The translations under genes were made by a program, and so were the position numbers. Source: a virus. Taken from it: a stretch of DNA of 60,152 nt. The stretch's first letter is position 1. Every line of letters starts with the position of its first letter. Shown one piece after another: positions 19,524 to 60,152 of this stretch. The notes beneath the pieces were generated by a model. That model searched no databases, was not told the origin of the DNA, and worked only from the letters and a program-made list of their open reading frames with translations. The stretch covers positions 1 through 60,152 of IMG/VR virus record IMGVR_UViG_3300044631_002033; one strand, 5' to 3'.

Positions 19524-19524
19524 G

Positions 19525-19596: not shown

Positions 19597-19621
19597 ATTC
19601 GCTATTTGCGAATAGCGAATG
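19596..19621 (-). repeat. Perfect hairpin filling the spacer between tRNA-Ile and tRNA-Met
   Basis: CATTCGCTATT-tgcg-AATAGCGAATG gives an 11-bp stem and 4-base loop that reaches the first base of tRNA-Met and the last two of tRNA-Ile. It has no T-run, so it is more likely a processing signal than a terminator. Confidence 0.8.
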
Positions 19622-42190: not shown

Positions 42191-42202
42191 TATTTATTTA
42201 TC
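42191..42202 (-). promoter_or_regulatory. Late promoter candidate(s) GATAAATAAATA
   Basis: Two overlapping NATAAATA matches 19-30 bases before the ATG at 42172. Confidence 0.5.
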
Positions 42203-42953
42203 AATAGGTTAGATGTTGAAGTGCTACTTTATGTTGTTCGGTAATTAAGAAAGGTTGTGAAGAAACTTTTTGAAAGACTTCAAAAATATCATTACGATTT
42301 GTTTTCCAGTGATGCCCACCACCATCATTTCTTTGTTGGAAACTCGTCCTTTCTTGATGCCTTGTCACCATTGTTTCAAAATCGAAACGATGTAAATGAG
42401 CAATGTATAAGTCCCGATGATAATTATTGTTTCTACCTTTGAGACTATGAAATCCCCAATTCCATTCAAGAGGAACCTTACTGATTAAGGTTTTATCTTC
42501 TGCAGCATCCTTGTACCAAAAATTTCTTTTCTCAAAAATACAATCACCAGGAGAAAGTGCTAACTCATTTTGAGTATCTTGAATCACACTATAACCACTA
42601 CAAGTCGCATACAAATCATCACCTTGAACAAAATCATTTAGAGTTTCATTCAAAGGTTTCTCAAGAGAATATAAAATCTCATCACTTTCAGCAAAAATTA
42701 CACATTCATATTCTCGAAGAAGTTCTCTTTGAAAATCTTGTGCGGTTTTAACTAACCATTCGTGGTCATTGACATATTCGTTTGAAACCAGACGAACATT
42801 CACTGGAAGATTTGATGTAGAACCATCCGTAGAAGAATGGTCTAGGACATAAATGTCTTCATTCGCAAAGTATTGTTGATAGTGTCTCAACCAAATTGGT
42901 AGAAAAATACTTTCATTTTTAACTGTGGTGAAAACAGCACACTTTTTTTTCAT
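42201..42953 (-). CDS. Glycosyltransferase, family 2/92-like (250 aa)
   Basis: KKCAVFTTVKNESIFLPIWL cut as CAVFTTVKNES, then DHSSTDGS and CVIFAESDEILY (DxD-like) are typical of GT-A transferases of the Glyco_tranf_2_4 or GT92 type; HLHRFDFETMVTRHQER is near the end. Soluble, no membrane segment. Last gene of the glycan locus; ATGA overlap with glf. Confidence 0.75.
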   Translation of the reverse strand: MKKKCAVFTTVKNESIFLPIWLRHYQQYFANEDIYVLDHSSTDGSTSNLPVNVRLVSNEYVNDHEWLVKTAQDFQRELLREYECVIFAESDEILYSLEKPLNETLNDFVQGDDLYATCSGYSVIQDTQNELALSPGDCIFEKRNFWYKDAAEDKTLISKVPLEWNWGFHSLKGRNNNYHRDLYIAHLHRFDFETMVTRHQERTSFQQRNDGGGHHWKTNRNDIFEVFQKVSSQPFLITEQHKVALQHLTY

Positions 42954-44035
42954 TTACAATCTCCAAACTTATTCATTGCGGACTTAATCACAGTGTCCAT
43001 ATCCATATACTTATACTCAGCAAGTCTACCACCAAATATAAAGTTTGTCAAAGAAGATGATTTATTTTTATAGTTTTCATAAATCATTTGATTTCTTTTA
43101 TCGTTAATTGGATAATAAGGAATCATTCCTTCTTGATATTCTTGTGGATACTCATAAGTAATCACAGTTTTTGATGATTGGGTCTTTTCAAAATGCTTGT
43201 GCTCTAGGATTCTTGTGTGAGCAACTTCACTGTCGCAATAATTAATCACAGCATTGCCTTGAAAATTGTCAGTATCTTTAATTTGATGCTCAAATCTCAA
43301 TGAACGATACTCAAGTTTCCCAAACTCGTAATCAAAGAACTCATCAATACAACCAGTATAAACAACTTGGTTTGCTAGTGAATTGAAGTGATTTCTATTC
43401 GAAAGATAATCGATATTCAACTGAACTTCAATACCATCAAGCATCTTTTGTATCATTGAAGTGTAACCACCGATGGGTATTCCCTGATAAGTATCGTTAA
43501 AATAATTATTGTTAAAAGTAAATCTTAATGGAAGTCTTTTGATAATAAAAGATGGTAATTCTGTTGCAGATTTACCCCACTGCTTTTCGGTATAACCTTT
43601 AATAAGAGTTTGATAAATGTCCTGTCCTACAAGGGATAATGCTTGCTCTTCAAGATTTGTTGGAGTTCCTTGAAACTTTTGTTGTTCTATAATTTCTTTT
43701 GCCTGGGATGGGGTTGTAACACCCCACAACTCATAGAAGGTATTCATATTAAAAGGAAGTGAATATAATTTTCCTTTTGAATATGCTTTAGGTGAATTGA
43801 TATAGTTGTTGAATTCAGTAAAACGATTGATAAAGTTCCAGACTACTTTGTTGTTTGTGTGAAAAATATGAGCACCATATTTGTGAATGTTTATTCCTTC
43901 TACATTTTCAGTATAGCAATTACCACCAATATGAGGTCTCTTATCAATCACTAAACAAGACCTGCCAGAATCAGTGGCAAGTCTTGCAAATGTGACACCA
44001 AATAATCCAGCACCAACAATTAGATAATCATACAA
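42950..44035 (-). CDS. glf: UDP-galactopyranose mutase
   Basis: Flavoenzyme that converts UDP-galactopyranose to UDP-galactofuranose. FAD motif DYLIVGAGLFGVTFA, IDKRPHIGGNCYTE, HKYGAHIFHTNN, FNMNTFYELWG, YTEKQWGKSATELP, and C-terminal FGGRLAEYKYMDMDTV. 361 aa, normal length. It implies that the neighbouring transferases build a glycan with galactofuranose, either on the virion or on the host surface. Confidence 0.95.
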   Translation of the reverse strand: MYDYLIVGAGLFGVTFARLATDSGRSCLVIDKRPHIGGNCYTENVEGINIHKYGAHIFHTNNKVVWNFINRFTEFNNYINSPKAYSKGKLYSLPFNMNTFYELWGVTTPSQAKEIIEQQKFQGTPTNLEEQALSLVGQDIYQTLIKGYTEKQWGKSATELPSFIIKRLPLRFTFNNNYFNDTYQGIPIGGYTSMIQKMLDGIEVQLNIDYLSNRNHFNSLANQVVYTGCIDEFFDYEFGKLEYRSLRFEHQIKDTDNFQGNAVINYCDSEVAHTRILEHKHFEKTQSSKTVITYEYPQEYQEGMIPYYPINDKRNQMIYENYKNKSSSLTNFIFGGRLAEYKYMDMDTVIKSAMNKFGDCK

Positions 44036-45892
44036 TCAACCTTTCCTCCAAAGTTGTTTTGAGAATTGAACCCAATCTTGAACTCTGGTGTCCCAACTGT
44101 AATACTGATTGCATACTTTTACCTGAAGAGTATTATCAAACTTACCTTCACGATACTCGGTAATCGTTCTCTTGAGTTCTCTTGCAAATCGTTCAATATG
44201 TTTTTGACGATCAGGAATAAAACCATACTGTCGTGCAAAACCTAGACCAGTTTCGGGAAGTGCAGCAAGATTACTAGAAAGAACAGAACATCCAGCACAC
44301 AATGCTTCAATCATAGAAATACAGGAGGTTTCCATAAAGTATGTTGGATAGGCAAAGATGTGAGTATTCATCAGTTGCTCTCTCACTTTAGAATTATTCG
44401 TGCGAGTATGACGAACAACTCTCTTATCCTCATTTGCAAGTTTCAAGCAATAACGAAGGAATTGTTGTTCTTGCTCATTAACGTGTGAGTATTCATAAGT
44501 TTGTAGACCTTGATGATACTGTTTGATTCTTTCGTCAGGATCAATCTCGTGGAAAACGTGAAGTTCAATATCTTCTTCTGGAATAAGTCTAAGTGATTCC
44601 AAAAGAATATCAAGACCACGAATGGGATTTGAATGAAACATCAAGTTAAGTTTGTTTCCTTCTGGTTTCTTGTGAGGTTCAAATGGTTGTGTTGCATTCT
44701 TAAGTACATAACACTTCTCTGCGGGCAGTTGGAACCTTTCCATAAACCTTTCATACTGCCAATCAGACACGAATACATATGCCTTAAAATGTTTTAAGAA
44801 CTGCTTGTCCAGTAGTGTCTCAAGACCATCTTCCATATGATGCATATGCACCCAAACTAGATTTGAACTGTCTGGGGACAAAGTATTATCACCTGGAAGA
44901 ACACACCAATGCCAATCGGCAAGATCTGGTGCAGCAGGCAAAACCAAGTCCTGCCAAGCACGACCCATAAGTTCCGTACCACCAACTCCATCAGGATTTA
45001 AAGTTGCTTCCAGAAGAGGAGGCATATTATTATGTAAATATTCTGGTTTTGTAACTACTGTTTCCGTCATTTCATAAAACTCCTGTGAAAATGTTTTCGT
45101 TATAACTCTTCTTAAATCTTCTGGAAAATTTAAAAAGTTATAGTTGTGAAATTTTTTGTTTTCGTGCTTTCTATTTAAAATATCAGTTTTGTTTTGAATA
45201 GCATCTTGAATACTTTGCTGATTATTTACTTCACCATTATTAAATTCTTGGTGTGCATAAGAGTTCAACTTATCTTGAATTTGTTTGATGCCACCAAAGA
45301 ATGTGAAGTGCCATCCAGCATTCTCAAAGAAAGGAAACTCATAAGAACGACCTCTCAAAAAGTCTGCATCAGTTTTAGATGCGGTCTCAACATTCGTGAA
45401 TACAGTTCCACCCCAAGTGCTGTTCTCGTAAGTGAAGAAATTATAATAGAAGTTATCACATCTCGCAAGAGCAAGTTTGTTCTCGGGAAGTCCATTTTGT
45501 TTGAGATGTTGAATCAATTCCTTGCGGGGAATCTCATCAGCATCACTCAACATAAACAAATCATCAGGAGAGAAGTTCTTAAGACCCTCTAGTATGTGAT
45601 TTCTTTGACCTCTCTCTAGTTTCCAGAACCCAGATTCAAAATTACATTCTTTTTTATTTGAGAAATCATAATCACTAATATCTGGTTCGTAATGAACTGA
45701 AATGATTTTAGAACGAAGTTCTTCATCAAACTCATTAATGATTTGATTAAGATAATATGGTTTTTCTTTACCAGAGTGTGTGTAATTACATTCACTAATG
45801 ATAAAATAATCTACAGTATCTCGTAAGTATTCTAATCTTAATTTAAGAATATCAAATTCATTAAAGAATGAAAATCCATCTATAACTTTCAT
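44036..45892 (-). CDS. Two-domain glycosyltransferase (GT17-like plus GT4-like, 618 aa)
   Basis: Residues 1-270 resemble GT17: VIDGFSFFNEFDILKLRLEY, SECNYTHSGKEKPYY, LSDADEIPRKELI. Residues 290-618 are a GT-B, family 4-like transferase: MFHSNPIRGLDILLESLRLI, YPTYFMETSCISMIEALCAG (E-x7-E pattern), NLAALPETGLG. Two enzyme halves in one chain suggest successive sugar additions. One-base gap to glf. Confidence 0.8.
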   Translation of the reverse strand: MKVIDGFSFFNEFDILKLRLEYLRDTVDYFIISECNYTHSGKEKPYYLNQIINEFDEELRSKIISVHYEPDISDYDFSNKKECNFESGFWKLERGQRNHILEGLKNFSPDDLFMLSDADEIPRKELIQHLKQNGLPENKLALARCDNFYYNFFTYENSTWGGTVFTNVETASKTDADFLRGRSYEFPFFENAGWHFTFFGGIKQIQDKLNSYAHQEFNNGEVNNQQSIQDAIQNKTDILNRKHENKKFHNYNFLNFPEDLRRVITKTFSQEFYEMTETVVTKPEYLHNNMPPLLEATLNPDGVGGTELMGRAWQDLVLPAAPDLADWHWCVLPGDNTLSPDSSNLVWVHMHHMEDGLETLLDKQFLKHFKAYVFVSDWQYERFMERFQLPAEKCYVLKNATQPFEPHKKPEGNKLNLMFHSNPIRGLDILLESLRLIPEEDIELHVFHEIDPDERIKQYHQGLQTYEYSHVNEQEQQFLRYCLKLANEDKRVVRHTRTNNSKVREQLMNTHIFAYPTYFMETSCISMIEALCAGCSVLSSNLAALPETGLGFARQYGFIPDRQKHIERFARELKRTITEYREGKFDNTLQVKVCNQYYSWDTRVQDWVQFSKQLWRKG

Positions 45893-46767
45893 TCAAGAAC
45901 CTCCTTTAAGAATTCTTCCATTGGTGATTTCTTAAAGATTTCAAGACCCTTTTCTGCTTGAGCATCAAGTTCTTCTGGTTTCTTGAGAAGTTTGTATGCA
46001 GTATCTACGAAACGATTGTATGTCGATTCAAATACTGTGCCTTCCATATAAGCAGGAAAATCAGTATCTGGATTTCTTTCAGTAAGAACAGGAACTTTAT
46101 TTTGAATCAAATGGGACACACGAATAATCTCAAAAATTTGATTATTCATATTATGAAGATTGATGACTAGTTTTGCTCGTTTAATATACTCATCTCTATC
46201 GTCACCATAAGTGCTTTGAATATGTACAAAGTTAAGTTTAGGATTATTCTCAAACTGCTTTAGGATATGAGTTCTTCTTTCTGTGGGGCATCCGTAGAAA
46301 AGAATGTCAATGTCTCTGTCCTGTGGTTTGTTGCGTTCAAAGTAAGTAATTTCTGGAACATAACCAACCTTACAATGCTTTATGTTCTCCACTCCTGCTT
46401 TGCGAAGAACTTCAGCATTTCTCATTGAATAGTCCCATACTTCTAAACCACGATACTTACGACACCAACGAATACACTCTGGACCATCTTTCATTTGCTC
46501 CAAAGAATAGATGATAGTATCTTTTGGAATATCGTGCCTCACCACATCTACAGGGCAGTGATGCATTCCAAAGACAATGTTTCTTCTACCAGGAACAAAA
46601 TCATTTACACTATTCGTTACATCGTGCCCCAAACATTGAAGAGAAAAAAACATTGCTGCTTCAATTTCATGAAACACTTGCGAATGAACATAAAATCCAT
46701 TGTCAGGAACAATTCGTACTAAATTAAATTTCACGGATAAACTCTCCAAAATTCTTTTTGATTTCAC
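45889..46767 (-). CDS. Glycosyltransferase family 1-like/CgeB-like protein (292 aa)
   Basis: MKSKRILESLSVKFNLVRIV, SLEQMKDGPECIRWCRKYRG, YVPEITYFERNKPQDRDIDI, LFYGCPTERRTHILKQF and LVINLHNMNNQIFEIIRVSH: the layout of GT-B proteins of the CgeB/DUF3880 kind, with a C-terminal nucleotide-sugar site. Overlaps neighbours by ATGA and by 44 bases. Confidence 0.7.
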   Translation of the reverse strand: MKSKRILESLSVKFNLVRIVPDNGFYVHSQVFHEIEAAMFFSLQCLGHDVTNSVNDFVPGRRNIVFGMHHCPVDVVRHDIPKDTIIYSLEQMKDGPECIRWCRKYRGLEVWDYSMRNAEVLRKAGVENIKHCKVGYVPEITYFERNKPQDRDIDILFYGCPTERRTHILKQFENNPKLNFVHIQSTYGDDRDEYIKRAKLVINLHNMNNQIFEIIRVSHLIQNKVPVLTERNPDTDFPAYMEGTVFESTYNRFVDTAYKLLKKPEELDAQAEKGLEIFKKSPMEEFLKEVLE

Positions 46768-48856
46768 TGATAAGATTTATATCTCTAGAAACAACTCCTA
46801 ATCCATTACAGTGACCGAAGTTTGTTTTTGGTAGATTGATTTCTTTGAAGAACCTACTCACACCAAACTTGGGGTCATCAACCATCGTATCGTGCATTAG
46901 AATTATACCATCTTCTTTAAGAAATGGTGCCCACTTCTCAAAGTCATTCTTAACTGCTTCATAGGTATGCAGACCATCAATGTGAAGAATATCAATTGGT
47001 TTCGTCCAAGTCTTTGCAACATCATCAAAGAATCCCTTGATAATTGAAACATTAGTCAATTCAAGTTCTTTGACCTTATCCATCACATACTCATAAGTAT
47101 CTCGTTCTCCAGCACAAATATCTCCTTCAAAACTATCAATACCATACACATCCCCAATTCCAGGAATTGCGAAACAGAATGTTGAGTAACCATAATCAAC
47201 ACCCAAGTCTACAGTTGTGCTTGGTTGTTTGCGACGAACAATCCAGTCAGCAAATTGTCTATGGTCTCTCCAGTTGAAATTATTCTTATTTCCAACTTCC
47301 ATCAAAATATCAAGATTATTTCTTGTGTATTCAGTCTCATCTCTTTCAACATCATCACGATACATCTCTGGGGGATAGTAGGTGAAGTATCTTTCAAGAC
47401 CTTGATTATCATACTGATGATGACGACGATAATGAAAACAATGTTGTTTTGGAATACCAGTTGCCATCCATAGTTCAAAGCAATAACGATAGTTCTGTAG
47501 TTCTCGCATCATTGCTTCTACATCCATATACTCTTCAATCTTGAGTGGATGCTTCAGTTTACGAATGTAATCGTTTCGTGCCCACCAGAAATTTCCAGCA
47601 TAGTGCTGAACCACAAAATCAAGTTTGATGTCGTGTCTTTCTACCCAATCAACACCACAGCAATCATAACCTTCATCAAGTTTTGCAACACAATCTTCCC
47701 ACTTCTCAACATTGAAGTACTGCATATAGTGCCTCCAATCTTTGATTGCACCAGGTATGTGAGTTGAATAAGAACTCATACCTTTGTTGTGGAAGTAGAA
47801 GACATAACCATCTTCATGTAGACAGTGTTCGTAAATCTTCGCAAGAGTCTGCCCTTCATAAAGATTTGGTTGCTCTCCAACAGGTTTAATATCAATAATA
47901 TTTACAAAAGGATAACGGTCTTTGATATAACCAATCACCATTTCATCATAAGAATGCCCAGTCTTGGAATTATAAAGTCCCAAAGGCAGAGTCATACACA
48001 TATTAATCTTTGCCTTATCTGCAAGACCAACAGTTTTCAACAGACTCATCTGCTCGTCGATCCACCATACCCACATATTGTTGGTGTCGGGGATAAACAT
48101 ATGGTAAAAGACATTGATAGTCTTTTCAGTTTTCTTTTCGTTTCTATAATTTAACATAGAGTTCTCCAATCTTGCATATTTTTCTCTTGGATAAGGTTGT
48201 AGATAATGATTTGTATGACTGTAATGTATCGAATCTACCTTTGGTTTATTATACAACACCCACATCTCATAAGAAAATGTGTGCCCTGCTAGTTTCTCTG
48301 TAAGACTTTCATCATAATATAAACTTCGGTTGAGAACATCAGGAAGAGTACGAATATAATTTGTCGTTGCCCACCAGAAGTTTCCAGAAAGATGTGGGTA
48401 AGGTTCTTGATTATAATTTGTTCCTACAACACTTACATCTTCTAGTTTTTTAACACAATCCTTCCATTGTTCAACCATCCAGTAATTCATATAATGTCTC
48501 CAATCCCTTGTAGGAATTGTTTGATATGAATTGATTGAATGTAATACTCCTTTTGAATGAAGGTAGAGCACATACCCATCATTATTCTTGGAGTATTCTT
48601 GAAGTTCTTTAAGTGTCTGCCCCTCGTAAAAATTATCTTCGGTGCTTCTTCTAGAAGATAGAACAGTTGCAAATGAATATTCTTTGTTGAGATAATCTCT
48701 TACCTCATCAAAATATTCATCAGGAGCAACATAACAAACATAAGTCTTTGCCACATCTGCTAGACCAACTTGTTTAATCAGTCCTAGTTGCTCATCAATA
48801 AAGTCTTTCCATAGATGATTCAGTGCTGCTAAATGATAAAAGACTGCAAGTTTCAT
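46724..48856 (-). CDS. Three-domain glycan enzyme: tandem glycosyltransferase-like domains plus SAM methyltransferase (710 aa)
   Basis: Residues 1-240 and 245-520 are homologous halves. Each has NVFYHMFIPD or LAVFYHLAAL at the start, a YEGQTLxxxxEYxxxxDGYV core, RDWRHYMNY/KDWRHYMQY and SGNFWWATTNYIR/AGNFWWARNDYIR, followed by HYxHTNHY/HYRRHHQY. Residues 540-710 are a class I methyltransferase (STTVDLGVDYGYSTFC, VYGIDSFEGD, IDILHIDGLHTYEAVKND). The duplicated half suggests ancient tandem duplication and later fusion. It probably adds and caps sugars. Confidence 0.75.
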   Translation of the reverse strand: MKLAVFYHLAALNHLWKDFIDEQLGLIKQVGLADVAKTYVCYVAPDEYFDEVRDYLNKEYSFATVLSSRRSTEDNFYEGQTLKELQEYSKNNDGYVLYLHSKGVLHSINSYQTIPTRDWRHYMNYWMVEQWKDCVKKLEDVSVVGTNYNQEPYPHLSGNFWWATTNYIRTLPDVLNRSLYYDESLTEKLAGHTFSYEMWVLYNKPKVDSIHYSHTNHYLQPYPREKYARLENSMLNYRNEKKTEKTINVFYHMFIPDTNNMWVWWIDEQMSLLKTVGLADKAKINMCMTLPLGLYNSKTGHSYDEMVIGYIKDRYPFVNIIDIKPVGEQPNLYEGQTLAKIYEHCLHEDGYVFYFHNKGMSSYSTHIPGAIKDWRHYMQYFNVEKWEDCVAKLDEGYDCCGVDWVERHDIKLDFVVQHYAGNFWWARNDYIRKLKHPLKIEEYMDVEAMMRELQNYRYCFELWMATGIPKQHCFHYRRHHQYDNQGLERYFTYYPPEMYRDDVERDETEYTRNNLDILMEVGNKNNFNWRDHRQFADWIVRRKQPSTTVDLGVDYGYSTFCFAIPGIGDVYGIDSFEGDICAGERDTYEYVMDKVKELELTNVSIIKGFFDDVAKTWTKPIDILHIDGLHTYEAVKNDFEKWAPFLKEDGIILMHDTMVDDPKFGVSRFFKEINLPKTNFGHCNGLGVVSRDINLISEIKKNFGEFIREI

Positions 48857-49548
48857 ACAACAACATTACTCTTAACATGCCCCACGATGACTTGAGGATC
48901 AAGATAAACTTGATGCCCTTGCTCTGCGACTTTCTCACAGAAGTAGAGGTCTTCACCTAATGGGAGTTCATAGACGACTCCATCGACCTCTTGAATCACC
49001 TTACCAAGACCAAACCATGGTCTCTTGAGTGATTCAAACACACCAGACTTGACACACATAAAACCAAGACCAACTCCATAAACTTCAATCGGTTCATCAA
49101 GTTGCTGAAGAAGTTGAATCTCTTCTCTCTTCATTGGTTTGAAATCATTCTTTGCACGATGCACCATTGCATCTGCTCCTTGTGCTTCAAAATACACAGC
49201 AGAAATTAAGTCCTTATTGGATGCATAAAGACGTAAGAACTGCTCTGGATTCCAGACAATATCACTATCAATCATAAAGAGTTTGTCGTATGTGTATTGC
49301 CCCTTTCCTGGTGCAGGATTAAAGACTTCTAAATTACGACTTCCAGTGATGGTTGCTTCTCTTGCATTTGTAATGATAGAAGCATACTCACTTTGAAAAA
49401 TCCAAGAAATATTATTTGCCTCAAGAGTATGAATTGTTGCCATTAGACACTTCACATACTCGGCACACATATGATGCCCTGGAGTTGTGATGACCACATT
49501 AAAGTGTGGTACTGTTGCTTGTTGCGGAGAATTAGAATAATTTAACAT
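48853..49548 (-). CDS. GT-A glycosyltransferase-like protein (231 aa)
   Basis: FNVVITTPGHHMCAEYVKCL, ITNAREATITGSRNLEVF, KLFMIDSDIVWNPEQFL (DxD), VYGVGLGFMCVKSGVFESL, LGEDLYFCEKVAEQGHQVYL. The last parts match the neighbour at 49553, so the two are paralogues. ATGA overlap with the three-domain gene. Confidence 0.75.
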   Translation of the reverse strand: MLNYSNSPQQATVPHFNVVITTPGHHMCAEYVKCLMATIHTLEANNISWIFQSEYASIITNAREATITGSRNLEVFNPAPGKGQYTYDKLFMIDSDIVWNPEQFLRLYASNKDLISAVYFEAQGADAMVHRAKNDFKPMKREEIQLLQQLDEPIEVYGVGLGFMCVKSGVFESLKRPWFGLGKVIQEVDGVVYELPLGEDLYFCEKVAEQGHQVYLDPQVIVGHVKSNVVV

Positions 49549-49552
49549 AGTC

Positions 49553-50272
49553 TTACAGAATTACCATTTTTTGATGACCGACTCGAACCTTTGGATTGCA
49601 CCAGATTTCAAAACCATACTCTCTTAAATCTTCACACATTGCAACGTCTTCGGAACACATATCCTCAAGAACAGTCCCATCATCTTTGATGAGTTGAACT
49701 TTCTTCGGTGCAAACCAAGGATAAGGAACTTTTTCGAAGACACCTTTTTTCATCAACACCCATCCAAAACCACAATATTCAACTTTAAATGGACCTGGAC
49801 GACGTTGCATTTCTTCAACGGTTTCAAAGTGATAAGAACCTTTAGTCATCAAAAGTTGCCTGTCCATATTGACAACAACAGTTGATTGATTTGCGACTGG
49901 AGTTCCGTTTGATTGAACGTACCAACCCGTTGCAACATCTTTATCCATCAACAGAAGTTCCAAAAGGTCTTCTGTCTTGAAAATAATATCACTATCAATC
50001 CACATAATATAATCATAAGGAACCTGCCCCCTAAAAGGAGTCAGCATCGTTCCTGCATAATTATCTGCCTGCAGACAATCAGTTCGTGCGTGATTCACCA
50101 TCGAACTGTATTGTTGAGAGATATAAAAATTAATTCCTTGTTGGTTTAGGTCAAACAGCAGTCTTACAAACTGCGTCATAAAGGTTCCAGAATACATTAA
50201 TCCTGGAAGACAAAATGCGATTGTTTTACCTTTAAAATTATTTTTCGGTTGATTTGTATAATTCAGGGGCAT
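49553..50272 (-). CDS. GT-A glycosyltransferase-like protein, paralogue (239 aa)
   Basis: TIAFCLPGLMYSGTFMTQFV, YDYIMWIDSDIIFKTEDLLE (DxD), YCGFGWVLMKKGVFEKVPYP, SEDVAMCEDLREYGFEIWCN, VGHQKM. Same architecture as the preceding gene. First gene of the glycan locus. A weak TATAAT (50296-50301) lies upstream without a clear -35. Confidence 0.75.
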   Translation of the reverse strand: MPLNYTNQPKNNFKGKTIAFCLPGLMYSGTFMTQFVRLLFDLNQQGINFYISQQYSSMVNHARTDCLQADNYAGTMLTPFRGQVPYDYIMWIDSDIIFKTEDLLELLLMDKDVATGWYVQSNGTPVANQSTVVVNMDRQLLMTKGSYHFETVEEMQRRPGPFKVEYCGFGWVLMKKGVFEKVPYPWFAPKKVQLIKDDGTVLEDMCSEDVAMCEDLREYGFEIWCNPKVRVGHQKMVIL

Positions 50273-50318: not shown

Positions 50319-53300
50319 TTACCACCAAGTAATTCTTACATATCCATTACCACCATCACCACCAAGTCCAAAACGATTTTGCTCTTGAGAGTATCCACCT
50401 CCACCACCTCCACCACCTCTGGTGCCGTTGCCTCCGTTTCCTGCTGCGGATTGTGAGGTTGATGATGCTAATGTTAATTCTCCACCAGCACAAGCAGCAA
50501 CATAAGTATTGTTTGCATAGATGAGTGCTTGAATAGAATTAACAACATTAGAAGTCCTAGAAGACCAAACAATTCCATCGGTAGAAGTAAATATTCTTCC
50601 AGGACTAGATTGACCACCAGCAACATAAAGATTGCTTGCAAAATTGAGAGCATTAATTTGAGCAGTACCAAAACCAGAAGTTCTTAAAGTCCAACGAATT
50701 GCATCTGTTGAGGTATTTAAGATTCCACTAGCACCACCAGCAAGATAAGTATTATTTTCAAAAGTGAGTGCATTAATTTGATTAGTACCAAAAGCAGAAG
50801 TTCTTAAAGTCCAACGAATTGCATCTGTTGAGGTATTTAAGATTCCACTAGCACCACCAGCAAGATAAGTATTATTTCCAAAGGTAAATGTTCTAATAGT
50901 ACTACCACCAAAACCAGAAGTTCTTAAAGTCCAAGAAATTGCATCTGTTGAGGTATTTAATACACCACCTTGACCACCAGCAACATAAGTATTGTTTGCA
51001 AAGGTGAGTGCAGGAATAAAATTACCACCAAATCCAGAAGTTCTTAAAGTCCAAGCAATTGCATCTGTTGAAGTATTTAAGACTCCACTAAGACCGCCGG
51101 CAACATAAGTATTGTTTGCAAAGGTAAGTGCAGAAATATAATTAGTACCAAAACTAGAAGTTCTGCTAGTCCAAGCAATTGCATCTGTTGAGGTATTTAA
51201 TTTTCCAATATCATCACCAGCAACATAAGTATTGTTTCCAAAAGTAAGGGCATTAAATTGATTCGTAGTACCAGAAGTTCTTAAATACCAACTCGTAACT
51301 CCTTCACTCAAAGCACCTCCACCACCTCCACCAGAACCATAAGAACCCGTATAAGTTCCATCAATACCATCGGAACCACTACCACCAGTATTACTTCCAC
51401 CATTATTTGTATAAGTATTTCCATAATAATAAGAAACTGAATTACCACCAGTAAAGGAATTAAATGCTCCTCCTCCACCACCAGTCACTTGGAATGAGTT
51501 TGCTTGTATTGTGCTATTTGAACCAACACCAGAAGAAAGTCCAGCACCACCAACAAGACCAGCAGTATTATAAAGAGGATTGAGTGTGACTGCTGCTGCG
51601 GCACCTGCGGTTCCTGCTGTGGTTGCCGTATCACTTGCACCACCACCAGCAGCAGAAGTTAGTGTATAAGTCGCAGTGCCCGTTGGAGTGTTTCCAGTCC
51701 AAGTGACAGTTGTAGAAGCACCAGAAGAACCACCACCAGAAGAAGCACCACCAGCAACAAAGGTGGTTCCGTATGTGAGAGCATTAATAGTTTGTGCTTG
51801 GAACAGTGAAGTTCTTAAAGTCCAGGTGATTGTGTCTGTGGAAGATGCTAAAAATCCAGAATTTCCTGCTGTTATATAGAGGTTGTTTGTGTAGGTGAGA
51901 GCACGAATAGTACTAGTAAACCCAGCAGTTCTCAATTCCCAGGTGATTGTGTCTGTTGAAGTGTTTAAGATTCCAGAAACACCACCAGCAATATAAGTAT
52001 TGTTTACAAAAATAAGAGCATTAGCAGAACCAGCAGAAGTTCTTGAAACCCATACAATTGTGTCTGTTGATGTTCTTAGGTTTGCAGTACCAGAAGAAGC
52101 AACATAAATATTGTTTCCATAAGTGAGAGCAAGCATATTATTAGAACCAAAACCCGAAGTTCTTAAAGTCCAATTAATTGCATCAGTTGATACATTTATT
52201 GCTGGAGATCCGCCAGAAAAAGCACCCCCCAAGACATAAATATTGTTTCCAAAAGTAAGTGTTTGAATAGCATTAGAACCAACTCCAGAAGTTCTTAAAG
52301 TCCAAGTGATTGCGTCTGTTGAGGTGTTTAATCTTCCACGACCAGCAGCACCACCAGCAGCAACATAAAATGTCGAATAAGTAAGAGCATTTATAGTATC
52401 AGTAGCAAAACTAGCAGTCCTTAAAGTCCAGTTAGTACCATCAGGAGAAGTACTTAATACTGAAGATGCACCACCGGCAACATAAAGATATCCACCATAA
52501 GTAAGAGTATTAATATCACTAGTACCAAACTTAGAACCACCAGGAACAGTAAACCAGTTAATACCATCAGTACTGGTACTCATACCACGATTGTTTCCAC
52601 CACGACCACCAGCACCAGGAGTCGCAGTCATCGTAGAAGCATTTCCAAGTTCTCCACGACGAATCAACCAGGCATTATAAGCACCAGAACCTCCACCACC
52701 ACCAGAACCGATTGTTCCTGTGTATCGTCCTGATGCTCCACCACCACCACCACCGATTGCCTCAATATAAAACTGTGTTGCTGTTGGAGGAATAAAAAAT
52801 GTTTGTGCTCCTGATGTTGTGAATTCTTGAGAACCTTTGTATGTTACTGGGTCTGTGGGTATTGTAGATGTGGAGTTTATTGGTTCCCAGATTTGTTGAG
52901 TTGCTTGGGAGGTTGCGAGTACACTGTTATTACCAGCATAAATGTATTGATTATTAATGTAGTTGAGAGAATATAAATCTAATGTAGTAGATGAGGTTCT
53001 TAAAGTCCAAGCAATTGCATCTGTTGAGATGTTTAGGACTCCAGTACCACCACCAGCAAGATAAGTATTGTTTGCATAAGTAATCGCACGAATAACATTA
53101 AGACCAAAACCAGAAGTTCTTAAAGTCCAAGCAATAGTATCTGTTGAAGTATTCAAAAGCGAAGCAGTTCCACTAACAACATAAATATTGTTTGCATAAG
53201 TAAGAGAATAAAGAGTATTGGTGGTTCCAGAAGTTCTTAAAATCCAAACAATAGCATCTGTTGAGGTTCTTATATTTCCATTATCACCAGCAGCAATATA

Positions 53301-53876
53301 AACACTATTTACATAAATGAATGTATTAATAGCATTAGAACCAAAACCAGAAGTTCTTAAAGTCCAAGCAATTGCGTTTGTTGATACATTTAATCTTCCA
53401 TTTTGACCACCTACAATATAATTATTGTTTGCGTAAGTGAGTGCATAAATTTGATTAGTACCAAAACCAGAAGTTCTTGAAATCCAAGCAATTGCATCTG
53501 TTGAAGTATTTAAGGTTCCACTTTGACCACCAGCAACATAAGTATTGTTTGCAAAGGTGAGTGCATAAATGACATTAGTGGCAAAACCAGAAGTTCTTAA
53601 AGTCCAAGCAATTGCATCTGTTGAAGTATTTAAGGTTCCAGTATTACCACTAGCAATATAAGCATTGTTTGCATAAGTAAGAGAATAAATTAAAGTACCA
53701 AAACCAGAAGTTCTTAAAATCCAATAAGCAGCACCAGGATAAACTGCCAAAAACTTCCCAGCATTTCCAGTTGTACTTGGAAGTGCATTATCATCAATAT
53801 ATTGTCGATTTACAGCATCGGTCGCAGAAGATACTACACTTACATCAATAACCTTATTGCTGTCTAATGTTGCCAT
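50319..53876 (-). CDS. Giant Asp-box fibre protein 1 (1185 aa)
   Basis: Starts with a fibre attachment motif (SSATDAVNRQYIDDN). The chain has some twenty imperfect 40-residue units of the type TLRTSGFGTNxIxALTFANN-TYVAGGxSGVLNTSTDAIAW. The S-T-D-A-I-x-W core is an Asp-box, as in BNR/sialidase and Ycf48 beta-propellers. Gly-rich loop domains interrupt the units (QTFFIPPTATQFYIEAIGG, GGGGSGAYNAW) and the end is GGNGYVRITWW. At 50701-51240 the unit repeats with exact 120-base period. Probably a host-binding fibre with several propellers. Confidence 0.75.
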   Translation of the reverse strand: MATLDSNKVIDVSVVSSATDAVNRQYIDDNALPSTTGNAGKFLAVYPGAAYWILRTSGFGTLIYSLTYANNAYIASGNTGTLNTSTDAIAWTLRTSGFATNVIYALTFANNTYVAGGQSGTLNTSTDAIAWISRTSGFGTNQIYALTYANNNYIVGGQNGRLNVSTNAIAWTLRTSGFGSNAINTFIYVNSVYIAAGDNGNIRTSTDAIVWILRTSGTTNTLYSLTYANNIYVVSGTASLLNTSTDTIAWTLRTSGFGLNVIRAITYANNTYLAGGGTGVLNISTDAIAWTLRTSSTTLDLYSLNYINNQYIYAGNNSVLATSQATQQIWEPINSTSTIPTDPVTYKGSQEFTTSGAQTFFIPPTATQFYIEAIGGGGGGASGRYTGTIGSGGGGGSGAYNAWLIRRGELGNASTMTATPGAGGRGGNNRGMSTSTDGINWFTVPGGSKFGTSDINTLTYGGYLYVAGGASSVLSTSPDGTNWTLRTASFATDTINALTYSTFYVAAGGAAGRGRLNTSTDAITWTLRTSGVGSNAIQTLTFGNNIYVLGGAFSGGSPAINVSTDAINWTLRTSGFGSNNMLALTYGNNIYVASSGTANLRTSTDTIVWVSRTSAGSANALIFVNNTYIAGGVSGILNTSTDTITWELRTAGFTSTIRALTYTNNLYITAGNSGFLASSTDTITWTLRTSLFQAQTINALTYGTTFVAGGASSGGGSSGASTTVTWTGNTPTGTATYTLTSAAGGGASDTATTAGTAGAAAAVTLNPLYNTAGLVGGAGLSSGVGSNSTIQANSFQVTGGGGGAFNSFTGGNSVSYYYGNTYTNNGGSNTGGSGSDGIDGTYTGSYGSGGGGGGALSEGVTSWYLRTSGTTNQFNALTFGNNTYVAGDDIGKLNTSTDAIAWTSRTSSFGTNYISALTFANNTYVAGGLSGVLNTSTDAIAWTLRTSGFGGNFIPALTFANNTYVAGGQGGVLNTSTDAISWTLRTSGFGGSTIRTFTFGNNTYLAGGASGILNTSTDAIRWTLRTSAFGTNQINALTFENNTYLAGGASGILNTSTDAIRWTLRTSGFGTAQINALNFASNLYVAGGQSSPGRIFTSTDGIVWSSRTSNVVNSIQALIYANNTYVAACAGGELTLASSTSQSAAGNGGNGTRGGGGGGGGYSQEQNRFGLGGDGGNGYVRITWW
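50641..51240 (-). repeat. 120-bp tandem repeat array inside fibre protein 1
   Basis: The 120-base unit starts in register at 50701, 50821, 50941, 51061 and 51181. The first two units are almost identical. Encodes the 40-residue Asp-box unit. Confidence 0.9.
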
Positions 53877-53898
53877 TTACTTTTAGTCTCCTTCAAGG

Positions 53899-53906
53899 TA
53901 TTTATT
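53899..53906 (-). promoter_or_regulatory. Late promoter candidate AATAAATA
   Basis: NATAAATA then CCTTGAAGGAGA (Shine-Dalgarno), 22 bases before the ATG at 53876. Overlaps the upstream stop. Confidence 0.6.
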
Positions 53907-56541
53907 ACCACCAAGTAATCTTCACATAACCATCACCACCATTACCACCATTACCAAAAGTAGAACCGATAGAAGCACCACCACCTCCACCACCTCCACG
54001 AGCACCATTACCACCAGTTGCTGCTATTGCAGTTCCTTGTGAAGTTGCTAATATTCCACTAGCACCAGCAACAACATAAGTATTGTTTCCAAAAACACTT
54101 CCATCAATAGTATTAGCACCAAAACCAGAAGTTCTTAAAGTCCAGGTGATTGTGTCTGTTGAAGTGTTTAAGATTCCAGAAGTACCGCTAAGAACATAAT
54201 TATTATTCCCATAAGTAATATCCGTATATTGGGGGGCACTACCAGAACCACCAGTTCTTAAGGTCCAAGTGATTGCATCTGTTGAAGTAATCAATCTTCC
54301 AGTACGACCAACAACAATATAAAGATTGTTTGCATAAAGACTATCAGTAGGAGTAAAACTAGCTCCAGCAGTTCTTGCAGTCCATTGGATTCCATTTGTT
54401 GAGGTACTTAATCTTCCTGAAGTACCAATAAGATAAACATTATTACCGAACAGAAGAGTATGTAATTCATTAGAAGCGGTAAAACCAGAAGTTCTTAGGG
54501 TCCAGGAGATTGAATCTGTTGAAGATGCTAATTCACTAAAAACATTGATAGTAAAATAATTACTATTATCAAATATTAAAGATTGTATTCCATATGAGGG
54601 ATTAAGACCGGTCGTTCTTGCAGTCCAAGCGATTACATCTGTTGAGGTATATAATCTTGCACCATCACCACCACCAACATAAAGATTATTTGTATAAATA
54701 AGATCATTAAAACTACCGGTAGTACCAGTAGTTCTTAAGGTCCAAGTGATTGCATCTGTTGAAGTGTTTAAAACTCCACTAGCACCAGCAGCAACATAAA
54801 ATGTTGAATAAGTAAGAGCATTAAGACCACTAGTAGTACCAGTAGTTCTCAAAGTCCAAGACCAATTTCCAACTCCTGCACCACCACCACCTCCACCAGA
54901 ACCATAAGGAAGTCCAGAGATTACAACGGCATTTGTACCATTGGTTCCTGTATTATTTCCACCAGATGCCGATGTAGAGATTCCATAAACATTAATAACA
55001 CCACCAGAACCTCCTGCAGATGCTGTAGAACCAGCACCACTTCCACCTCCTGTTGGTTGGAATTGATTGGTTTGTGTGGTTGCTGTGAGTCCAGCACCGA
55101 TTGGTGTTTGAAGTGCTCCAGAACCTCCAGCAGTTGTATAATAAAAACTTGATTGAGATGCTACTTGTGCTGTTCCTGCGACACCTGCAGCACCTCCACC
55201 ACTTGCAGTGATGGTATAAGTTCCTCCAGGTCCAGTCCAGGATATTGTAGTTCCTGCTCCTGCCGAACCTGTGCCAGCATCTGTGGTTGCACCTGCACCA
55301 CCAACACCAGGATTAACTGTGAGATTTGAAGAAATAATATTTTTTGGAATGTACCAAGAAGTATAAGAACCTGATGAACCACCTTGTCCTGATACTTGTG
55401 AGTATGAAGTATTTAAGACTCCACTATCACCACCAGAAACATAAGTATTGTTTCCAAAGGTGAGTGCAAGAATACCATTAGAACCAAAACCAGAAGTTCT
55501 TAAAGTCCAAGTGATTGCATCTGTTGAGGTATTTAAGATTCCACTAACACCACCAGCAACATAAGTATTGTTTGCAAAGGTGAGTGCTCTAATATTAGTA
55601 GTAGCAAAACCAGAAGTTCTTAAAGTCCAAGCAATTGCATCTGTTGAAGTATTTAAGACTCCACTAGCACCACCAGCAACATAAGTATTGTTTCCATAGG
55701 TGAGTGCATTAATATCATTAGTAGCAAAACTAGAAGTTCTTAATACCCAAGTAATTGCATCTGTTGAAGTGATAAACCCCCCACTAGAACCCCCTGCAAG
55801 ATAAATACTACCATCAAAAGAAAAAGATCTAATAATACTAGTAGCAAACCCAGAAGTTCTTAAAGTCCAAGTGATTGCGTCTGTTGAAGTTCTTAAATCT
55901 CCAAATCCCCCACCAGCAAGATAAGTATTATTTAAATAAACAAGTTTGGTAGTATTATTACCAGTACCAGAAGTTCTTAAAGTCCAGGCAATTGTGTCCG
56001 TTGAAGTAATTAATACTCCACTATTACCACCAACAACATAAAATGATGAATATGTACTAGATTGGAGTGCTACACCAGCACCAGAAGTTCTTGCAGTCCA
56101 AATGATTGCGTTTGTTGAAGTTCTAATTCCACCTGGTGGTGTTGTTCCAGTTACAACATATAACCCACCATAAGTAATGGAAGACAGTGTTTCTACAGTA
56201 CCAGAAGTTCTTAAAGTCCAAGTCACACCTTGATATACTTGTGCATTAGACTGCCCCGCACCTCCTCCACCACCAGCACCAGTTGCTTCAATGTATAAGA
56301 GATTGGCATAACTTGGAACATTAAAAGTTTGACTTCCAGTTGTTGTAAACTCTTGATAGTTAGAAACATAATCCCAAGAGATATTCGTTCCATCAGTCGT
56401 GGTGAGAAACTTACCAGCATTTCCAGTTTGTGATGGTAGTGGTTGAACATTTGCATCCACATAGTCCTTGTTGACTACATCAGTTGTAGCAAAGACTGTT
56501 GTAGTAATACCTGAAATAAAATTAGAACCTGCTGTTGTCAT
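53905..56541 (-). CDS. Giant Asp-box fibre protein 2 (878 aa)
   Basis: Same architecture as its neighbour: attachment motif (TTDVVNKDYVDAN), Gly-rich entry domain (SQTFNVPSYANLLYIEATG), about 16 Asp-box units (GILNTSTDAITWTLRTSGFG), a Gly-rich central insert and the end GGDGYVKITWW. Good Shine-Dalgarno AAGGAGGT before ATG. Confidence 0.75.
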   Translation of the reverse strand: MTTAGSNFISGITTTVFATTDVVNKDYVDANVQPLPSQTGNAGKFLTTTDGTNISWDYVSNYQEFTTTGSQTFNVPSYANLLYIEATGAGGGGGAGQSNAQVYQGVTWTLRTSGTVETLSSITYGGLYVVTGTTPPGGIRTSTNAIIWTARTSGAGVALQSSTYSSFYVVGGNSGVLITSTDTIAWTLRTSGTGNNTTKLVYLNNTYLAGGGFGDLRTSTDAITWTLRTSGFATSIIRSFSFDGSIYLAGGSSGGFITSTDAITWVLRTSSFATNDINALTYGNNTYVAGGASGVLNTSTDAIAWTLRTSGFATTNIRALTFANNTYVAGGVSGILNTSTDAITWTLRTSGFGSNGILALTFGNNTYVSGGDSGVLNTSYSQVSGQGGSSGSYTSWYIPKNIISSNLTVNPGVGGAGATTDAGTGSAGAGTTISWTGPGGTYTITASGGGAAGVAGTAQVASQSSFYYTTAGGSGALQTPIGAGLTATTQTNQFQPTGGGSGAGSTASAGGSGGVINVYGISTSASGGNNTGTNGTNAVVISGLPYGSGGGGGGAGVGNWSWTLRTTGTTSGLNALTYSTFYVAAGASGVLNTSTDAITWTLRTTGTTGSFNDLIYTNNLYVGGGDGARLYTSTDVIAWTARTTGLNPSYGIQSLIFDNSNYFTINVFSELASSTDSISWTLRTSGFTASNELHTLLFGNNVYLIGTSGRLSTSTNGIQWTARTAGASFTPTDSLYANNLYIVVGRTGRLITSTDAITWTLRTGGSGSAPQYTDITYGNNNYVLSGTSGILNTSTDTITWTLRTSGFGANTIDGSVFGNNTYVVAGASGILATSQGTAIAATGGNGARGGGGGGGASIGSTFGNGGNGGDGYVKITWW

Positions 56542-56553
56542 TTGTTTACCTCC

Positions 56554-59500
56554 TTATACCCAACTGATACGAACATAACCAGCACCACCAGTTCCACCAG
56601 AACCTGCAGAGTTGCTGACTTCATCATAACCACCTCCACCACCTCCACCACCTTTGACTCCAGAACCTCCTGTGCCTGCTGATGCGATTGGAGATGTTAC
56701 GAGAATTCCACTAGAACCACCAGCAACATAAGTATTATTTCCAAAAGTAACTGAATGTACATTACCAGCAGTAAAAGCAGAAGTTCTTAATTGCCAAGTA
56801 ATTGCATCTGTTGAGACACTTAAAAATCCAGATGTGCCTGTAACATAAGTATTATTAAAGAAACCGAGTCCAAATACACTATTACCAGTAAAAATACCAG
56901 AAGTTCTCAAAGTCCAAGCAATTGCATCTGTTGAAGTTGCAGTTTCACCCCAGGTATTGATAGTGACATAGATAGAATTTCCATAAGTAAGACCATGAAT
57001 GTTGTAATTAGATGTATTATTAAGTCCAGAAGTTCTTAATTCCCAAGTAATTGCATCTGTTGAAGTGTTTATTTTTGAACCACTACTACCACCAGCAACA
57101 TAAATTCCATTTGCATAAATGATTTCATTAATGGCAAGAGTAGCAAAAGCAGAAGTTCTTATAATCCAACTAATTGAATCTGTTGAAGTATTTAATCTTC
57201 CACTATCACCACCAGCAACATAAGTATTGTTTGCAAAAGTGAGTGCTCTAATAGTAGAAGTAAAACCAGAAGTTCTTAAAGTCCAAATAATAGTATCTGT
57301 TGAGGTATTTAATCTTCCACTATCACCACTCGCAACATAAAAAGTTTCATATATGATAGAATAAATATCAGCAGTACCAAAACCAGCAGTTCTTAAAATC
57401 CAAGTAATTGCATCTGTTGAGGTATTTAAGATTCCACTAGCACCACCAGAAAGATAAGTATTATTTGCAAACGCAACTGATCTAATAATAGAAGTGCTAA
57501 AACTAGCAGTTCTTGCAGTCCAGAACAACGCATCTCTACTTGCAGCACCTCCACCACTTCCACCATTACCATAAGAAAGTCCAGAAATACTTAAAGAAGA
57601 ACTTCCTGGTATTTGATTATTTGTTGCACTAATTGTGTTTCCATAATAGTTCAGTGTTCCTCCAAGACCACCAAGAACACCACCAAATAAATTATAACCA
57701 ATTGAATAAGCACCAGCACCACCACCAGTTGTTTGATATGCAAGTGTTGCTGTTGCTGCTGCTGTTGGTGTTACACCTGGATAAAGACCAGAAGCACCAG
57801 CACCACCTGCACTTGCTCTTAAGTAATTAAGTGTTGTACTTGGAACCGTACCACCAGCACCAACAACATAAGCAGTACCAGCAGAACCACCATTTGCAGT
57901 AATTGTATAAGTTCCTGCAGGTCCCGACCAAGATACTGTGGTTCCTGCACCTGCTGTACTTGTTGTACCACCAGCACCAACAGTCACAGAAAGTGTTGAT
58001 CCAGTAATTTGAGACTTATCTAATTCCCAAGTGACTGTTGCTCCACCGCCGCCGCCAGAACCGCCAGAACCAAGACGAACTGGAGAAGCAGAAACAGCAC
58101 CAGCAGCGCCTGCAGTGATAAAAGTATTCCCAATACCAACAGAAGACGATAAAGATTGTGCGGTATTTGAAGTTCTTAAGACCCAAGTGATTGCGTCTGT
58201 TGATGATAGAACAACACCAGAATCACCATTTGCAATATAAGTCGAACCACCATAAGAAAGACCACGAAGAATTGATGTTCTACCTGAGGTTCTTAAAGTC
58301 CAAGTAATTGCATCTGTTGAAGTATTTAATATTCCAGATTCACCACAAATAGCATAAATATTATTTCCATAAGTAAGAGAAAGAATATTAACAGCTGCAG
58401 AAATTCCAGAAGTTCTTCTAGTCCAAGTAATTGCGTCTGTTGAGGTATTTAAGACTCCACTATTACCCGCAAAAATATAAGTATTATTTCCATAAATAAG
58501 AGCATTAAAATTAATAGGTGAAGTATTTGCTGTTCTTAAAGACCAATTTATAGTATCAGTAGAAGAACTTAAAACTCCAGAGTTTCCACCAGCAACATAA
58601 ACACCACCATAAACCATAGCATTAATAGTGGTATTACCAAACCCAGAAGTTCTCAGTAACCAGTTAATGCCATCTGTGGTGACTGAAATAAAACCACCAT
58701 TACCAATCGCATCAGTACATCCAGCAACAATATAATCATTACTGATTCCAATAGAGTTAATGGTTTGAATTGCAGTGTTTGTTGTACGAAGTATCCAATA
58801 TAAGGTGTCTGTTGATGTAGAAAAATAGGCACCGTTTCCAAACCCAGATAAGATGTTTTGTGTTGATGTTGCACTTACTCCAGAAGTACCAGCATAAACA
58901 TAAATATTATTCCCATATCCCAGCGTATTAATTGTTGATGATGTAAATGTTGATGACCTTAGAATCCATACAATTCCATTAGTAGAAGTTGCCGCATTAC
59001 CACCAGCACCACCAGCAACATAAACACCATCATTATAAACCAATGAGTTGATTGCGTTTGTGGTAAATGGTGCGGTTCTTATAGTCCAGTTACTTCCATC
59101 TGCGGATGTTGCTAAACGACCAGAATCACCAGAAGCAACATAAAGAGTTCCATAAGTTAATGCACGAACTGCATTCGCACCAAATCCAGGTATTTTAGCA
59201 TCCCAAGAAATTGAGTCAGTTGATGTAGAAAGTCCAAGACCTAGAGTTGTTAAAGATGTTTGAGTTGCAGTATTTAAAACTCCACTTTGACCACCAACAA
59301 TATAAGTATTGTTTGCAAAAGTAAGAGAACGAAGAGAAGCAAAATAAGAAGAAGTTCTTAAAGTCCAAACAATTGCATCTGTTGAGGTATTTAAGATTCC
59401 ACTATCACCACAAACAACATAAGTATTGTTTCCAAAGGTGAGTGCTCTAATAATATTACCACCAAAACCAGCAGTTCTTAAAGTCCAAGCAATTGCATCA

Positions 59501-60152
59501 GTAGAAGTTATTAGTGTCCCATTACTATCACCAGCAACATAAGTATTATTTGCAAAAGTAAGAGCAGTAATAGTACTAGTAAAACCAAAAGTTCTTAATA
59601 CCCAAGTAATTGCATCTGTTGAGGTATTTAATCTTCCACTAGTGCCACCAGCAACATAAGTATTGTTTCCATAAGTAAGTGCAAGAATATTATTACCAAT
59701 AAAGTTAGTAGTAGTTCTTAAAGTCCAAGCAATTGCATCTGTTGAGGTATTTAAGGTTCCACCATCACCACCAGAAACATAAGTATTGTTTCCAAAAGTA
59801 AGTGCAAAAACAGAAACAGCACCAAAACCAGAAGTTCTTAAAGTCCATTGAATGGTAGAAGTAGTATTTCCACCAGCAACATAAAGACTATTTGCATACA
59901 ATAAGGCATTAATCGTTGCATTACCAAATCCAGAAGTTCTAAATTCCCAAGAAAGTCCATCAGTAGAAGTGATAAGGTCTCTATTGAAACCATCATAGTC
60001 AGTATATCCAGCAACGATACGGTTTGAATCTCCAACTGCAAAGGAGTTAATGGTTTCTACATTTGAGTTTGTGGTTCTTAAAATCCAAACAATTTCATCT
60101 GTTGAAACTGAAAAATAAGCACCGAGTCCTGTGGAGGTTAGTGTGGTGGATG
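56554..60152 (-). CDS. Giant Asp-box fibre protein 3, 5' end beyond the window
   Basis: The frame is open from the right edge (60152) to the stop at 56554, so at least 1199 residues are present and the start is outside. It repeats the Asp-box unit more than 25 times with more variation than in paralogues 1 and 2. Two Gly-rich domains (GSGGSGGGGGATVTWELDK, YGNGGSGGGAASRD) and the end GGAGYVRISWV are present. The in-frame TTG at 59901 is not a start. Confidence 0.75.
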   Translation of the reverse strand, partial: STTLTSTGLGAYFSVSTDEIVWILRTTNSNVETINSFAVGDSNRIVAGYTDYDGFNRDLITSTDGLSWEFRTSGFGNATINALLYANSLYVAGGNTTSTIQWTLRTSGFGAVSVFALTFGNNTYVSGGDGGTLNTSTDAIAWTLRTTTNFIGNNILALTYGNNTYVAGGTSGRLNTSTDAITWVLRTFGFTSTITALTFANNTYVAGDSNGTLITSTDAIAWTLRTAGFGGNIIRALTFGNNTYVVCGDSGILNTSTDAIVWTLRTSSYFASLRSLTFANNTYIVGGQSGVLNTATQTSLTTLGLGLSTSTDSISWDAKIPGFGANAVRALTYGTLYVASGDSGRLATSADGSNWTIRTAPFTTNAINSLVYNDGVYVAGGAGGNAATSTNGIVWILRSSTFTSSTINTLGYGNNIYVYAGTSGVSATSTQNILSGFGNGAYFSTSTDTLYWILRTTNTAIQTINSIGISNDYIVAGCTDAIGNGGFISVTTDGINWLLRTSGFGNTTINAMVYGGVYVAGGNSGVLSSSTDTINWSLRTANTSPINFNALIYGNNTYIFAGNSGVLNTSTDAITWTRRTSGISAAVNILSLTYGNNIYAICGESGILNTSTDAITWTLRTSGRTSILRGLSYGGSTYIANGDSGVVLSSTDAITWVLRTSNTAQSLSSSVGIGNTFITAGAAGAVSASPVRLGSGGSGGGGGATVTWELDKSQITGSTLSVTVGAGGTTSTAGAGTTVSWSGPAGTYTITANGGSAGTAYVVGAGGTVPSTTLNYLRASAGGAGASGLYPGVTPTAAATATLAYQTTGGGAGAYSIGYNLFGGVLGGLGGTLNYYGNTISATNNQIPGSSSLSISGLSYGNGGSGGGAASRDALFWTARTASFSTSIIRSVAFANNTYLSGGASGILNTSTDAITWILRTAGFGTADIYSIIYETFYVASGDSGRLNTSTDTIIWTLRTSGFTSTIRALTFANNTYVAGGDSGRLNTSTDSISWIIRTSAFATLAINEIIYANGIYVAGGSSGSKINTSTDAITWELRTSGLNNTSNYNIHGLTYGNSIYVTINTWGETATSTDAIAWTLRTSGIFTGNSVFGLGFFNNTYVTGTSGFLSVSTDAITWQLRTSAFTAGNVHSVTFGNNTYVAGGSSGILVTSPIASAGTGGSGVKGGGGGGGGYDEVSNSAGSGGTGGAGYVRISWV

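Follow-up and report, generated by a model that had tools for sequence, protein, structure and literature searches.

Background

In eukaryotes, DDB1, CPSF160 and SF3B3 carry several propellers in one chain, with intertwined and discontinuous connections, and their nesting is shallow and fixed in a single architecture. To our knowledge, no protein is known in which one fold nests within itself to the depth described here, and full-text searches of the open literature found no self-nesting propellers. Among phage adhesins, the gp38 fibre-tip proteins of Salmonella phage S16 and E. coli phage PP01, which are of the T2 type, consist of a poly-glycine II sandwich that displays hypervariable receptor loops (PMC12892980). 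In this study, we report the computational characterisation of three adjacent genes in a virus record of 60,152 bases, the whole of which is referred to as the window. We consider it likely that these genes belong to a T4-like cyanophage and encode three paralogous proteins, fibres or adhesins, which carry seven-bladed propellers that are plugged into slots, nested and exchangeable, and which would act in host binding.

Methods

The window was compared with related contigs, numbered L009-L055. Structure prediction with AlphaFold2 (AF2) used a blade-register-correct alignment of single propellers, made up of the slot-3 propeller of window gene 2 and 101 relatives. A fold of full-length window gene 2 from 12 sequences reached a pLDDT of 34 and was set aside for the single-propeller alignment. 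Nesting was examined with a bracket parser, which recognises the signatures of opening and closing links from local sequence only and reads them as brackets, together with an excision check; in MAFFT alignments of nested together with flat genes, the blades fall out of register.

Results and discussion

Origin and genomic context

The record carries T4-type genes (a gp32-like SSB, a gp5-like lysozyme and a tail fibre), and its nearest annotated relatives are T4-like cyanophages, the best being S-SRM01 (78.5% over 22% of a 24 kb query). Reaction-centre genes of the psbA/psbD type (PF00124) were detected in all seven tested contigs that share the fibre gene cluster. These contigs are therefore cyanophages, and computation places the origin of the three-gene cluster among them. 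The PF00124 match in contig L046 (G007 60101-61182) lies in two pieces, interrupted by two TGA codons and one TAA codon; an intron, an insertion or a sequence error is possible.

The region directly downstream of the fibre genes (42201-50272, minus strand) holds a glycosyltransferase-like cluster, with two phrog_1574 genes, which have weaker matches to glycosyltransferase families, and one phrog_2170 gene; a 710-aa protein with a methyltransferase domain is encoded there too. These products could modify the sugars of the fibre or of the host surface. Upstream of gene 1, the relative L025 encodes a collagen-like tail fibre of 2078 residues ending in a Peptidase_S74 chaperone, which provides a fibre context for the genes. 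No match to the scaffold of the three proteins was found in a search of annotated phages, and none to the gene 2 family among 84,980 bacterial and archaeal species, searched as one genome per species. Elsewhere in the window, tRNA genes for Met(CAT) and Ile(TAT) were found at 19524-19691 (minus strand), and an ORF at 2604-3332 (minus strand) contains imperfect tandem repeats of 66-78 bp at 2806-3035.

Three Asp-box repeat proteins encoded in tandem

The initial annotation, which was made from the sequence alone, had described giant Asp-box repeat paralogues in tandem. Three long minus-strand ORFs were indeed found, with 58 visible Asp-box blades of about 40 residues each (21 + 14 + 23 in genes 3, 2 and 1). 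All three encode Gly-rich fibre proteins: gene 3 (50319..53876) has a product of 1185 aa, gene 2 (53905..56541) one of 878 aa, and gene 1 (56554..60150), which continues past the window and has its 5' end cut, shows 1198 aa. Gene 1 is entire in the near-identical contig L010, where it encodes 1782 aa with 35 blades and a nesting depth of 3, and its array was confirmed in L045 over 25 blades.

The protein ends, given earlier as identical and of the YVRITWW type, are in fact YVRITWW, YVKITWW and YVRISWV, and thus similar only. Tandem repeat analysis (TRF) returned periods of 114-123 bp throughout, with 74-82% matches; the blades are thus similar, and the description of the units as near identical in the initial annotation was overstated. 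Three features had escaped that annotation, namely the grouping of blades in exact sevens, the fixed slots in the scaffold and the nesting in gene 1. The mechanism that it proposed was one of simple tandem arrays, in which slippage or unequal crossing-over multiplies blades into rows of propellers or open solenoids of drifting blade number. The tandem period of about 120 bp is in favour of such growth, as are blades that recur in identical form within some genes (blades 31 and 33 of L018).

Predicted fold of a single propeller

Structure prediction of the repeat units, a check that the initial annotation had put forward, was run on the seven-bladed slot-3 propeller of window gene 2 (54040..54858, minus strand). 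The model, with a pLDDT of 93.3 and a pTM of 0.91, has 28 strands, of which the first is a strand d and the last a strand c, and is predicted to form a closed ring of seven four-stranded blades with 1+3 strand closure. In the same alignment the seven blade tryptophans are at least 90% conserved, and six of them are invariant. The best Foldseek matches were to YCF48 (E 4e-12, identity 15-18%), and the other solved neighbours included the designed proteins Tako8/Ika8 and many seven-bladed rings (Foldseek/VIA full-length matches, Z about 31). A profile of the gene 2 family matched solved beta-propellers at E=3e-14, so the repeat pattern is not due to chance. In Pfam, DUF6242 matched near its cut-off, and no sialidase family matched at E<1. 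Weak Pfam matches to HlyD_D4, NP_C_Orthomyx and POB3_N were taken as chance hits on repeats.

Regular blades carry the Asp-box S-T-[DN]-x-[IV]-x-W, as judged from 250 distinct 40-residue blades that had been selected on ST[DN], and strand placement from the AF2 model puts its S-x-D...W between strands c and d. The Asp-box is invariant, and the most variable of the 40 blade positions are 10-15 and 28-31, corresponding to the d-a and b-c loops. By strand order, these two loops would share one face of the propeller, which fits a binding face.

Propellers occupy fixed slots in a glycine-rich scaffold

When the proteins were laid out blade by blade, the blades fell into blocks of seven, and the positions at which these blocks break the glycine-rich scaffold are few and fixed; in the relatives the same scaffold slots were found either occupied or empty. 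The computational comparison thus shows slots in the scaffold. In window gene 3 (21 blades, parse [7][7][7]), seven-bladed propellers fill slot 0 (52908..53723), slot 2 (51738..52556) and slot 3 (50463..51290), all on the minus strand; slot 0 is empty in L016 and L025. Gene 2 (14 blades, parse [7][7]) has seven-bladed propellers in slot 1 (55405..56220, minus strand) and in slot 3, the one modelled above, with Gly-rich scaffold between them (54859..55404, minus strand). The slot 3 propeller of gene 1, also of seven blades (56692..57522, minus strand), is separated from slot 1 by a further stretch of Gly-rich scaffold (57523..58083, minus strand).

The gene 2 propellers were also defined by empty-site alignment. 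Slot 3 of this gene is empty, with conserved flanks, in L016, L017, L018, L020, L021, L023 and L025; the scaffold there reads as an unbroken GGGGGGASV-SIAATGGNG in L017 and L018 and is similar in the other five. The same slot is filled by a propeller of ~273 residues in the window, L011, L012, L014 and L015, and a bare gene 2 scaffold with zero propellers is present in L031 (162-1127). Since slots are filled or left empty by whole propellers, the length of gene 2 products is quantised, at ~316 residues with no propeller, 591-603 with one and 878-915 with two. The Gly-rich domains noted in the initial annotation were confirmed by PF21722 (Gly_rich_2), which scored 40.4 bits against a gathering cut-off of 24.3 on the uninterrupted scaffold of L025 gene 3. 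Since their domain is broken up by propellers, the window proteins stay below this cut-off or are missing from the matches.

Nesting of propellers within propellers

Two kinds of irregular blade occur in the long arrays. "Open" blades, of about 30-40 residues, stop after strand b, lack the Asp-box and are followed by a new strand d. "Close" blades, of 51-62 residues, are extended at the end, where a second strand c precedes the Asp-box; a typical sequence is TATQxxLTSLGNGALLxASTDTITW. Read as brackets, these signatures resolve gene 1 of L010 into [d(dd(ddddddd)dd(ddddddd)ddd)dddddd], in which the outer ring contains one ring and this in turn two, with seven blades in each. The parser is partly curated (a few close-linker patterns were added by hand after inspection, earlier rules having missed some links), and with it seven blades were found at every level in 44 of 46 related genes, which are mutually related and do not amount to 46 independent trials, and in 145 of 159 propellers. 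The exceptions were confined to two genes, gene 3 of L020, which is truncated by the contig, and the divergent gene 3 of L042, in which blade detection fails. Blade totals were likewise multiples of seven in 44/46 genes, contrary to a change of propeller size by single blades.

When link types were permuted within an array, an all-seven parse was obtained in none of 5000 trials for L010 gene 1 and for L021 gene 3, in 2/5000 and 1/5000 for two other arrays, and in 197/5000 for the simple array of L025 gene 2, a protein of 902 aa that parses as [dd(7)ddddd]. In the excision check, a profile built from un-nested (leaf) propellers only, but relying on the same parse as the bracket test, matched 33 of 36 parent rings over at least 95% of the profile length once the insert had been excised, as against 2 of 63 tandem blocks of seven. 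On this computational evidence, drawn from sequence, gene 1 appears to hold three levels of propellers, the inner ones each lying in a b-c loop of the propeller around it.

In the window, the outermost slot-1 propeller of gene 1 (58084..58797, minus strand) shows six of its seven blades, the first lying beyond the window. One of its blades has an empty b-c loop (58546..58662, minus strand; GGVYVAGGNSGVLSSSTDTINW), and this loop is filled by a seven-blade propeller in L011 and L018. The putative second-level propeller (58864..60150, minus strand) is split by a third-level nested propeller (59266..59847, minus strand), which lies at the contig end and has five blades as assembled and seven in L010 and L045. 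The deepest nesting was read in L054 (2-12640) and L055, where an ORF of 4212 residues with its 5' end cut contains 91 blades that parse into 13 concentric rings; in most of these, two blades precede the insert and five follow it. Near-identical blades recur across several levels of L054 (blades 65, 70, 75, 80 and 85), which suggests recent repeated nesting.

Simple tandem growth could draw on the assembled inner propellers that depart from seven, with five blades in the window and six in L051. Set against it are the multiples of seven, the balanced opening and closing signatures with seven blades per level, and the end-to-end profile match that nested parents give and tandem blocks seldom do; the DNA identity steps described below, which fall at propeller edges, weigh in the same direction. 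We therefore regard simple tandem arrays as very unlikely. Our preferred reading, which we hold to be probable, is a recursive architecture, in which the b-c loop of a seven-bladed propeller would be a slot for a propeller of the same family, with 13 levels seen and cassettes of 0.85 kb exchanged among scaffold slots, genes and phages, so that host-recognition modules would be nested within one another.

Reproducibility of the assembled arrays

The apparent variation and depth could in part be an artefact of metagenome assembly in repeats. Over 12-15 kb the window, L009 and L010 match at 100%; all their differences fall within gene 1, close to the ends of contigs, and could reflect either strain variation by propeller replacement or chimeric assembly, and the five-blade inner propeller of the window may be an assembly artefact. 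Contigs also often end in fibre genes. In both L051 and L052 the giant gene 3 is broken into two ORFs (L051 16972-17056), and its innermost ring has six blades; a frameshift, an assembly error or a split gene is possible.

Against an artefact, identical nested arrays were assembled from several different samples: L010 equals L045 over 4436 bp with 1 mismatch, the arrays are identical in L018 and L019, in L025, L026 and L027, and in L054 and L055, and they are near-identical in L017 and L030 (1 mismatch) and in L051 and L052 (2 mismatches). Random collapse, moreover, could not yield exact sevens across 13 levels, and the mosaics described below lie in contig interiors. We thus find it quite unlikely that part of the variation and depth is due to assembly.

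Exchange of whole propellers

At the protein level, one nested propeller of L031 gene 3 and one of L046 gene 1 are 91% identical. In the DNA, the two agree at 82-100% across most of their length; identity falls to 70-77% at either end and to 35-75% beyond the propeller. Comparable pairs were found between genes 3 and 2, and also between nested propellers and propellers in scaffold positions. In the close pair L014/L015, two gene 3 propellers drop to 53-80%, whereas most flanks and the scaffold remain at 86-100%. Between the window and L011, with a backbone of ~80%, the propellers in gene 2 slot 3 and gene 3 slot 2 are about 88-100% identical (largely so for the latter), and those in gene 3 slots 0 and 3 are mostly at 55-80%, with slot 3 taken singly mostly at 55-70%. 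The steps in DNA identity are sharp at propeller edges and are bounded by single propellers; change thus proceeds by one propeller at a slot. Arrays are mostly the same in near-identical contigs of different samples, and whole-propeller swaps appear at larger distance.

Computational comparison thus shows exchange of units between slots, genes and phages. The reading in the initial annotation is supported in part, for Asp-box propellers on fibre-like proteins and for diversification by shuffling, and DNA identity profiles show swaps between slots, genes and phages; the shuffled unit, however, is the whole seven-blade propeller and not the single blade.

Proposed mechanism and function

In the model that we propose, each protein would combine a fibre-like N-terminus with a glycine-rich scaffold, in which as many as four fixed slots receive closed seven-bladed Asp-box (Ycf48-like) propellers. 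A propeller would begin with strand d and finish with strand c, and the 1+3 strand pairing that closes the ring would bring its ends together, which makes it insertable into a loop. A whole propeller may then enter the b-c loop of a blade that belongs to another propeller, giving nests with a predicted depth of 3 in window gene 1 and of up to 13 in relatives. Propellers would be copied or swapped as units of about 0.85 kb, most likely by homologous recombination through conserved blade sequences, and selection would retain only sevens, as a ring must be closed in order to fold. Host surface structures, probably sugars, would be bound by the variable loops of one propeller face, and binding specificities would be altered or multiplied when propellers are exchanged. 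We infer that the three proteins are located on the virion and bind receptors.

The same architecture might instead serve structural decoration, glycan-binding camouflage or a Ycf48-like action on host photosystems. In favour of such a role, no solved fold is closer than Ycf48, psbA/psbD-type genes are present in the phages, and the annotation of a related single-propeller protein, from phage DSL-LC01, names a photosystem II assembly factor. The DSL-LC01 gene, however, lies between collagen-like genes of an actinobacterial phage, in which a photosystem role makes no sense, and identity to Ycf48 is low, as given above. Repeated and swapped propellers, anchored by a Gly-rich scaffold beside a collagen-like/S74 tail fibre gene, fit adhesins, as do the fibre-like N-termini and the mosaic variation. 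A non-receptor role therefore seems unlikely to us, and we favour receptor binding.

With such proteins, a phage could extend and reshuffle the surface by which it recognises hosts and still keep the protein intact. A closed propeller whose ends are adjacent would act as a plug-in cassette, and every plug-in may provide a new socket. The 13 concentric propellers raise a question of co-translational folding, as the outermost ring would close only after thousands of residues, and nested propellers raise one on the evolution of domain insertion. The propellers would also offer a natural parts list for multivalent binders, and the proposed architecture would explain giant cyanophage repeat ORFs that assemblers and annotators break or mislabel.

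Comparison with known systems

Like gp38 of S16 and PP01, the proteins described here have a Gly-rich scaffold in which putative host-recognition segments lie in loops between glycine-rich motifs, a place in T4-like phages that would be the fibre tip, and variation concentrated in loops. Solved gp38 structures gave no sequence match to the window proteins. The loops of gp38 are short and hypervariable (about 6-10 residues in PP01), whereas those of the window proteins carry propellers of ~275 residues, some of them nested; by analogy, the plan resembles that of gp38 with the loops replaced by whole propellers.

The propellers themselves are like Ycf48/HCF136 and other Asp-box propellers (BNR, sialidase-like and DUF6242) in having seven blades and an Asp-box between strands c and d. 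Ycf48 is a single free propeller; in the phage proteins the propeller is multiplied, inserted into slots and, as predicted, nested. Highly repetitive blades are shared with 2ymu and the designed Tako8/Ika8, in which we know of neither nesting nor a Gly-rich scaffold. The nearest precedent for nesting, DDB1/CPSF160/SF3B3, is without the recursion, slots and unit swapping that distinguish the present proteins.

Propellers of the Asp-box type also occur on other phage proteins, some of them tail proteins, as in the BNR repeat protein of S-CBWM1, the baseplate wedge initiator of S-SSM7 (BFVD) and WJZ48562 of DSL-LC01; for the BFVD phage proteins, the likeness is a match of predicted propeller folds alone. 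WJZ48562 differs in being one free-standing seven-blade propeller. The DSL-LC01 gene annotated "photosynthesis system II assembly factor" (L056 2989-3861; OQ999401 120119-120991) encodes a single seven-blade Asp-box propeller, and this annotation is probably misleading. In BFVD, very similar predicted propellers were seen in phage proteins that carry intramolecular chaperone domains and in a collagen-repeat protein of a giant virus, Hokovirus. Propellers on phage proteins are thus already known, as predictions, and it is their recursive nesting that would be the surprising feature of this locus.
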